DNA of 64,000 nt. Origin: Thiotrichales bacterium. GTDB lineage: Bacteria; Pseudomonadota; Gammaproteobacteria; HK1. A program made the position numbers and the translations under genes. Location: the NCBI GenBank assembly GCA_026709935.1, contig JAPOSC010000004.1, forward strand, positions 186,789 to 250,788, written 5' to 3'. How positions within the stretch are numbered: the stretch's first letter is position 1; each line of letters starts with the position of its first letter. Shown piece by piece: positions 14,845 through 16,885 of the stretch. Under the pieces are notes generated by a model, which ran no database searches, was not told the DNA's origin, and worked only from the letters and a program-made list of their open reading frames with translations.

Positions 14845-15371
14845 CGAATAGAAGCCGGGAAGAACGAGGCGCGCGATGGTAAGGATTGGCGTTCTGCCCC
14901 GCAAGCTGCGCTGCACCGCTCGACCGTCCGGGACCATTTTTTGCCGGGAGCGAGTGCTGGTGGCCGGCATGTGCATGTCCTTGATGCTGCCGACAGCGGC
15001 TCCACGAGACTCGAAGGGACACCCGGACAATCAAATTCTCCCCGAAATGGTCCGTTGAACGCGCTCACCTCACCGGTCGTCGGACAAAAACGAGCCCTGC
15101 TCGATTTCCGACCACGTCGAGCCCATCGCCTACAAGCGTCGTGCCCCGGTGCCATAGTGCGACTGCCTGCCGCGGTGCATCCTGTCCCTTCGTATCCGTG
15201 GCCCGCGTCCGCCACAACTGTACGGGCGCTGTACGGCCGCCGCTGTACCGCCAAACACGCGGTGCCGCCGCCCCACCATCTCTTGGGACCGGAGCATGCC
15301 CGTGGTACCGTCATCCGCGACACTCAGCCTTTCGCCACTGCCACCGGCCCGCCGATCCGGGAGTCCTTCCG

Positions 15372-16112
15372 ATGTCCCAACCCATCGCTCCCTCCACCGA
15401 TGCCTCCAGCGTTCCCGTCGCCGATGCCCCTGTCCCCCCTGTCACCGCCTCCCCGGCCGCGATTGACTACCCGAGCTCGGACGGCAAGCCGTTGGCCGAG
15501 AACGACCCCCAGCTCCACGCCATCCTCTACGCGGTGGGCGCGCTACGGGTGTACTACCGGGACCGCCCGGACGTGTACGTCTCGGGGGACCTGCTGGTGT
15601 ACTACGAGGAGGGCAATCCGCGGGTGTCGGTGGCGCCCGATGCCTTCGTGGTGTTCGGGGTCGAGGACCGGATACGGATGAACTACAAGGTGTGGGAGGA
15701 GGGGAAGGGTCCGGACTTCGTGCTGGAGGTGGCGTCGCCGAGCACGTGGCGCGAGGATGTGAGGAGGAAGCCGGGCATCTACGCGGGTCTCGGAGTCCGC
15801 GAATACTTCCTGTTCGACCCGATGGGAGCGCACTACACGCCACGGCTGCGGGGGTATCGGTGGGTGGCGGGGAAGTACGAGCGGCTGACGGCGGTGGAGT
15901 CCATCGACCGGACGCTGACGTTGCGGAGCGAAGTACTGGACCTCGACCTGCGCACACAGGGCGAGGAGATTCGTTTTCACGACCCGGCGACGGGGGAGAC
16001 GCTGCTCAGCTACGAGGAAGAGGCTGCGGCACGGCGAGAAGAAGCCGCCGCACGCCAGGCCGCCGAAGCGCGGGTCGCGGAACTGGAGGCGCGATTGCGC
16101 GAGTACCGGTAA
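15372..16112 (+). CDS. Uma2 family endonuclease-like (DUF820) protein
   Basis: DLLVYYEEGNPRVSVAPDAFVVFGV...GPDFVLEVASPSTWREDVRRKPGIYAGLGVREYFLFDP. Confidence 0.9.
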   Translation: MSQPIAPSTDASSVPVADAPVPPVTASPAAIDYPSSDGKPLAENDPQLHAILYAVGALRVYYRDRPDVYVSGDLLVYYEEGNPRVSVAPDAFVVFGVEDRIRMNYKVWEEGKGPDFVLEVASPSTWREDVRRKPGIYAGLGVREYFLFDPMGAHYTPRLRGYRWVAGKYERLTAVESIDRTLTLRSEVLDLDLRTQGEEIRFHDPATGETLLSYEEEAAARREEAAARQAAEARVAELEARLREYR

Positions 16113-16237
16113 GCATTTCAGTCCGCGCTTTGAGCCGACTGTTGCGTAGGATTCTTCCGAGGATTCGAGCGTGCCGCCGGTAAGCCGTGGATGGTATTCT
16201 GACCCCAGCACTTCAGCCATCGACAGGGAGCATGCGA

Positions 16238-16885
16238 ATGAGCCTGGCCAGCAAGCTCGACGCCATCCGCGAGGCGGGAGCGAAACGGGTCCCGGAGGAC
16301 AAACGCGCGGTGATGGGCGCGGCCCAGCAGGCGCTGCGCGAGTCGGGAATCGACAGCGGATTCATCAAGGTGGGCGACCGGCTTCCCGATTTCGCGCTCG
16401 GCAATGCGCGAAGTCAGGTGGTGCGCTCGGCGGAACTGCTCGACCGTGGCGCGGTGGTACTCACCGTGTTCCGAGGGCACTGGTGACCCTACTGCAATGC
16501 AGAGCTGTATGCTTTGCAGGCAGTGGTACCGGAGTTGGAGAAGCACGGCGCGACGCTGGTCGCGGTCACGCCACACAAGGCTGAGCACAGCCTCAGGATG
16601 GTCGAACGACATGGGCTCGGCTTCGAGATGCTGTCGGACCCGGGGAATGCGTATGTCGCCCGACTCGGGCTGCGCTTCCAGGTGCCGGAGGCGCTGAAGG
16701 AGGCCTATCTGAGCCTCGGCATCGATCTGGCGGAGTCGAGCGGATCTTCGGACTGGACTCTTCCGGTACCGGCCCGGCTCGTCGCCGACCGCACCGGATT
16801 GGTCCGCGCGGCCGATATCGACCTGGACTACACGCGCCGTCCGGAGCCCGAGAAGACGCTCGCGGATGTCGAAGCGCTTGACTGA
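16238..16885 (+). CDS. Candidate selenocysteine-containing peroxiredoxin-like (AhpC/TSA) protein; in-frame TGA at 16484-16486
   Basis: Same frame before and after TGA: LLDRGAVVLTVFRGHW-[TGA]-PYCNAELYALQAVVPELEKHGATLVAVTPHKAEHSLRMVERHGLGFEMLSDPGN; Cys homologues read RGxWCPYCNxEL. Confidence 0.75.
16487..16526 (+). promoter_or_regulatory. Putative bacterial SECIS-like hairpin immediately 3' of the in-frame TGA
   Basis: CTGCAA (16492-16497) pairs with TTGCAG (16514-16519), inner GCA/TGC (16499-16501/16510-16512), outer CCCT with AG(T)GG; apical loop GAGCUGUA starts with G. Confidence 0.6.

Follow-up and report, generated by a model that had tools for sequence, protein, structure and literature searches.

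A gene of a Thiotrichales bacterium very probably encoding a selenocysteine-containing UxxC protein with a peroxiredoxin fold

The gene and its single in-frame TGA

The window, i.e. the whole stretch of 64,000 nucleotides that was analysed, carries a gene that the ORF list gives as two same-frame pieces (16187..16486 and 16514..16885). From the ATG at 16238 to the TGA at 16883-16885, the frame is open save for one TGA (16484-16486), which lies in VFRGHW-U-PYCNAEL. An earlier note on this DNA had claimed that the ORF track splits a gene whose halves share one frame, and both pieces can indeed be joined in-frame across this TGA. The features of the locus are the following:

16225..16230, + strand: putative Shine-Dalgarno-like AGGGAG, 7 nt upstream of ATG 16238, proposed from the sequence
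16238..16885, + strand: predicted gene of a Prx-like UxxC selenoprotein, 215 amino acids plus stop
16484..16486, + strand: in-frame TGA, codon 83, read as selenocysteine (Sec83) from homologue conservation and the Sec machinery
16489..16526, + strand: SECIS-type hairpin downstream of the TGA (+6..+43), predicted fold
16493..16495, + strand: TGC codon of Cys86, the partner of Sec83 in UxxC, an invariant column
16498..16505, + strand: conserved upper stem, 5' arm (UGCAGAGC)
16506..16510, + strand: apical loop UGUAU with a nearly invariant G
16511..16518, + strand: conserved upper stem, 3' arm (GCUUUGCA)
16883..16885, + strand: terminal TGA, a normal stop; the homologue in genome G108 has TAA at the corresponding place

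The Pfam domain AhpC-TSA covers residues 45-191, on both sides of the internal TGA (E=2e-21; 76.6 bits vs. a gathering score of 26), in agreement with the AhpC/TSA-type protein of about 216 codons that had been proposed. A single copy of the motif CGNGGNNNNTGGTGACCNTWYTGYNNNNNNGAR is present in the window, none of 100 shuffles contains it, and the gene itself is single-copy in its own genome. The predicted protein displays a UxxC motif, Sec83-Pro-Tyr-Cys86, of which Cys86 is the sole cysteine of the chain and therefore the only possible internal partner of Sec83.

The gene sits between aspS/Uma2 and a PspA-type region, a Uma2-family putative nuclease gene (window 15366-16112) lying directly upstream of it. 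Two congeners also have the PspA neighbour (sequence similarity, judged by eye), and no conserved operon beyond the genus was found among the neighbour genes of ten Sec loci.

Conservation of the TGA and selenocysteine machinery of the host

We compared the gene with its relatives in 186 genomes. Three congeners (80-83% identity) and one member of another family of the same class (54% identity) carry a sole internal TGA, at the codon where the window gene has it. The next homologues, with 35-47% identity, present WCPYC or WCPFC in place of the TGA motif. The single interruption thus falls where Cys homologues have the first Cys of WCPYC, as the earlier note held, and the close relatives possess TGA rather than TGC at codon 83, without other lesions. 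Between the four congeneric genes, Ka/Ks was 0.10-0.27 before the TGA and 0.14-0.18 after it, so the downstream coding part, previously described as intact, is indeed under constraint. In the same four genes, the 12 codons right after the TGA tend to display fewer synonymous changes than the remainder (small counts).

To broaden the comparison, GTDB was scanned with a degenerate TGA motif, using one genome per species (85,462 species). The motif was found in at least 118 GTDB stretches, and all of the 80 loci fetched proved to be homologues of the query, with identities from 62% down to about 24%. A sequencing error or a pseudogene, i.e. a TGC or TGT changed into TGA with truncation of the product at residue 82, would need one substitution only, and standard ORF callers do end at 16484-16486. 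However, the identical TGA is found in independent assemblies from many phyla, the window gene carries no other lesion, and its genome possesses a complete Sec machinery (see below). Homologues from 83% down to about 25% identity share the TGA at codon 83 and, together with a purifying selection that is unchanged past it, they exclude both chance and a pseudogene, in line with the earlier argument that a random nonsense mutation or sequencing error was unlikely here. Raw reads with TGC at this codon, another refuting result named in the earlier note, are very unlikely given the TGA shared by independent assemblies. This explanation is refuted by the conservation of the TGA, and we grant it practically no probability.

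In the tree, the branch holding the window gene comprises 46 Sec rows, spread over about nine phyla, and its support is moderate only (SH-aLRT 83). This branch adjoins a mixed Cys/Sec branch. The Sec/Cys label needs at least four changes on the tree (Cys sampling being confined to the class of the window), and Sec and Cys may therefore have been exchanged more than once. A distant RGxWUP[YF]C selenoprotein branch (among loci L050-L129, e.g. L058, L060, L062 and L065) shows an apparent N-terminal membrane segment; it occurs in Acidobacteriota, Verrucomicrobiota, Myxococcota and Gammaproteobacteria. Separately, a Sec copy with 59% identity to the window gene was found in a metagenome-assembled genome labelled Klebsiella pneumoniae (L068; CAMATU010000054.1). 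This genome is probably a mislabelled or contaminated bin.

The window's own genome (3.78 Mb, 88 contigs, 96% complete) was searched for selA, selB, selC and selD, as the earlier note had suggested. All four are present, so the candidate is not refuted by a missing machinery. The tRNA-Sec is located at C68:24207-24298 (73.6 bits) and was called by ARAGORN as tRNA-SeC with anticodon TCA (UCA); selB adjoins it and selA adjoins selB. The selD gene lies on another contig (G000:C51:78509-79426, L019), inside an open frame of 808 codons. The N-terminal part of this frame, judged by eye, is NADH dehydrogenase-like and resembles the Ndh-SelD fusion described in PMC2398784. Of the 186 genomes compared, 16 scored above the selA cut-off: all five with the TGA, vs. 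11 of the 181 others (Fisher p=2.5e-6). In G001, a genome of the same genus, selA is present and no close homologue of the window gene was found at 96% completeness, which suggests a loss or an assembly gap.

An open frame across the TGA, taken alone, would also fit a genome-wide recoding of this codon (e.g. as Trp or Gly) or a programmed leaky read-through, both without Sec. Yet TGA is the ordinary stop of the window gene itself and of aspS, the homologues stop at TAA, TAG or TGA, and the internal TGA is restricted to the Cys position. With the tRNA-Sec (UCA) of the genome, the TGA stops and the Cys position rule out an alternative code, and the SECIS-like codon constraint described below further counts against recoding. 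The probability left to such a reading is negligible. It is very probable that the window gene encodes a Sec-containing UxxC redox protein, its exact substrate set aside.

A SECIS-type hairpin and its codon constraint

Downstream of the TGA, UGACCCUACUGCAAUGCAGAGCUGUAUGCUUUGCAGGCAGUGGUACC is predicted to fold into a single hairpin. The minimum free energy of 16484-16530 is -23.4 kcal/mol, with a z of -4.4 against dinucleotide shuffles, and the hairpin of the window also stands out from synonymous shuffles (p=0.01). Over 50 distinct sequences, 81.5% of the cells of the 8-bp stem (+15..+22 with +28..+35) are paired, vs. 30-49% (at most 48.8%) when the stem is slid to other offsets. A double change from C-G to U-A at columns 17/33 preserves the pair in L096 and L068, both from the nearer set. 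Covariation in the stem is otherwise modest, because the hairpin core hardly varies. The consensus from RNAalifold over 51 diverse sequences did not contain the stem, and the Rfam search of the hairpin region gave no matching family.

The codons of the stem differ between the two kinds of genes. The Glu codon is GAG in all 51 Sec genes vs. 5 of 14 Cys genes (p=6e-8), and the Ala codon is GCT in 46 of 49 Sec genes vs. 4 of 14 Cys genes (p=2e-6). The search did not impose this fixation of GAG, since the scan pattern accepted GAA and GAG alike. The mean z against synonymous shuffles is -1.33 for 51 Sec genes and -0.47 for 17 Cys genes; as these rows are related, the pooled score is not a probability. 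A constraint on the codons of the hairpin core in Sec but not in Cys genes is as expected of a SECIS element, which this hairpin would be. While the TGA conservation, the Cys homologues, the Sec machinery and this codon constraint are read directly from the sequences, it is from them that we infer the actual insertion of Sec.

Active site, probable function and known families

A model predicted by AlphaFold2 with 39 Sec homologues shows a peroxiredoxin fold (pLDDT 97.6, pTM 0.92). The best fold matches in the PDB are the BCP/PrxQ/AhpE peroxiredoxins, ResA-type proteins being also among the matches. In the profile alignment, Sec83 is placed at the Ser/Thr of the peroxiredoxin TxxC and at the first Cys of the ResA CxxC. 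Cys86 matches the second Cys of this CxxC and, in BCP, the peroxidatic Cys. Pro178 corresponds to the cis-Pro position of ResA and to an Arg of a Sulfolobus PrxQ, which we take to be the catalytic one. From these alignments, the active site is thioredoxin-like on a peroxiredoxin body, as predicted from sequence and model. Invariant positions over the 39 sequences are R79, G80, W82, Sec83, P84, C86, E89, D134 and R201. Neither a signal nor a membrane anchor was found in the window protein.

The protein would most likely be cytosolic and act as a UxxC thiol-dependent peroxidase or thiol:disulfide oxidoreductase, through a Sec83-Cys86 selenylsulfide cycle. SelB with bound Sec-tRNA(Sec) would recognise the hairpin just past the UGA, and selenocysteine would be put in at residue 83, giving a soluble protein that combines a peroxiredoxin fold with a thioredoxin-like UxxC site. 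Sec83, the likely nucleophile, would attack its substrate, either a peroxide or an oxidised thiol. Cys86 would then resolve it by forming a Sec-Cys selenylsulfide, and recycling of the enzyme would rely on a cellular dithiol of the thioredoxin or glutathione type. For the redox chemistry, the substrate class and the reductant, this scheme is what we infer.

With Sec inserted, the roles of the two residues might also be reversed, the protein being a peroxidase in which Cys86, at the peroxidatic position, makes the first nucleophilic attack and Sec83 acts in resolution. The alignment of Cys86 with the BCP peroxidatic Cys and the BCP, PrxQ and AhpE fold matches speak for such an enzyme. The Prx-like protein Alr4642, here likened by name only, is reported to protect Anabaena from oxidative stress (a paper cited in PMC4349727). 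Sec in place of the peroxiredoxin Thr and Pro at the position of the catalytic Arg are however both thioredoxin-like features; with this Arg replaced, a classical peroxidase chemistry is not to be assumed. Selenolates are, moreover, normally the stronger nucleophiles. We consider this reversal quite unlikely, and retain Sec83 as the likely attacking residue.

The neighbourhoods of homologues bear on a refinement of this scheme, in which the protein would act with glutathione enzymes against electrophile or alkyl-peroxide stress. On plasmids of Methylobacterium, Rouxiella and Pantoea, proteobacterial Cys homologues (L178, L179 and L181) belong to clusters of the form GST - Prx-like - SDR, accompanied by a LysR gene in divergent orientation; GST and SDR are also found at one further annotated Cys-homologue locus, and a GST gene is located upstream of the Sec homologue in G108. 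By analogy, these neighbourhoods hint at a detoxification of electrophiles or peroxides. Yet GST is absent beside the window gene, with its aspS/Uma2 and PspA-type neighbours, and the neighbourhoods examined are few. We consider this refinement rather unlikely.

Prx-like UxxC selenoproteins with PF00578 have been catalogued (PMC1088965; PMC2398784, as "Prx-like 1"; PMC9312934; PMC13188914). With Prx-like 1, the window gene shares the AhpC-TSA domain, a UxxC that replaces CxxC, numerous Cys homologues and a predicted SECIS. We judge that it belongs with these selenoproteins, by domain and motif only. The earlier note was unsure whether the family had been catalogued, and to this extent its kind has been. 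The published reference WP_010940744.1 may belong either to this soluble branch of about 215 amino acids or to the distant, apparently membrane-anchored one (L058/L065 type). PRX_like2-type proteins (cd02970) carry a CxxC motif (PMC3514251); compared by description, their catalogued Sec form has UxxS (PMC13188914), unlike the UxxC of the window protein. ResA/TlpA-type oxidoreductases present a CxxC and cis-Pro arrangement similar to the UxxC and Pro seen here. ResA is membrane-anchored and extracytoplasmic, whereas the window protein has neither signal nor anchor and possesses an extra N-terminal helical part.

The Sec-peroxiredoxins (BCP/PrxU, TxxU) share the fold of the window protein, but their Sec occupies the position of the peroxidatic Cys. 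In the window protein, Sec lies three residues earlier, at the Thr/Ser position, with Cys86 at the peroxidatic one, so that it falls outside the TxxU type. It also lacks the classical Pro-Thr-Cys-Arg set, Thr being replaced by Sec and the catalytic Arg by Pro178. A TxxU member is found in the same genome, i.e. a second gene with an in-frame TGA encoding a BCP/PrxQ-type peroxiredoxin (PKADTPGUTREG; G000:C48:22214-22582, L169), whose TPGU is the classical arrangement. This lineage, probably gammaproteobacterial, would thus have at least two peroxiredoxin-fold enzymes that use Sec, one for each active-site position (UxxC and TxxU).

For annotation, the SelL-related redox proteins (NF040769) are Prx-like selenoprotein relatives, but the window protein scores 25.4 bits vs. 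a cut-off of 120 and is not a member. More generally, no NCBIfam model scored above its cut-off for any of the four family members tested, the window protein included, and PGAP names the Cys homologues "peroxiredoxin-like family protein". This kind of bacterial selenoprotein is already recognised, but the present branch is large and widespread and lacks a dedicated annotation model. That the soluble RGxWUPYC branch of about 215 amino acids forms a large selenoprotein subfamily of its own, outside the published Prx-like UxxC references and the NCBIfam models, with a distinct SECIS core (GAGC-loop-GCTC) and a role beside glutathione enzymes in electrophile/peroxide stress, is a tentative and rather doubtful proposal. 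The ORF listing that splits the gene, the number of GTDB stretches with the same TGA motif and the lack of an NCBIfam model together amount to an annotation gap, and a dedicated model would improve the annotation of such genes.
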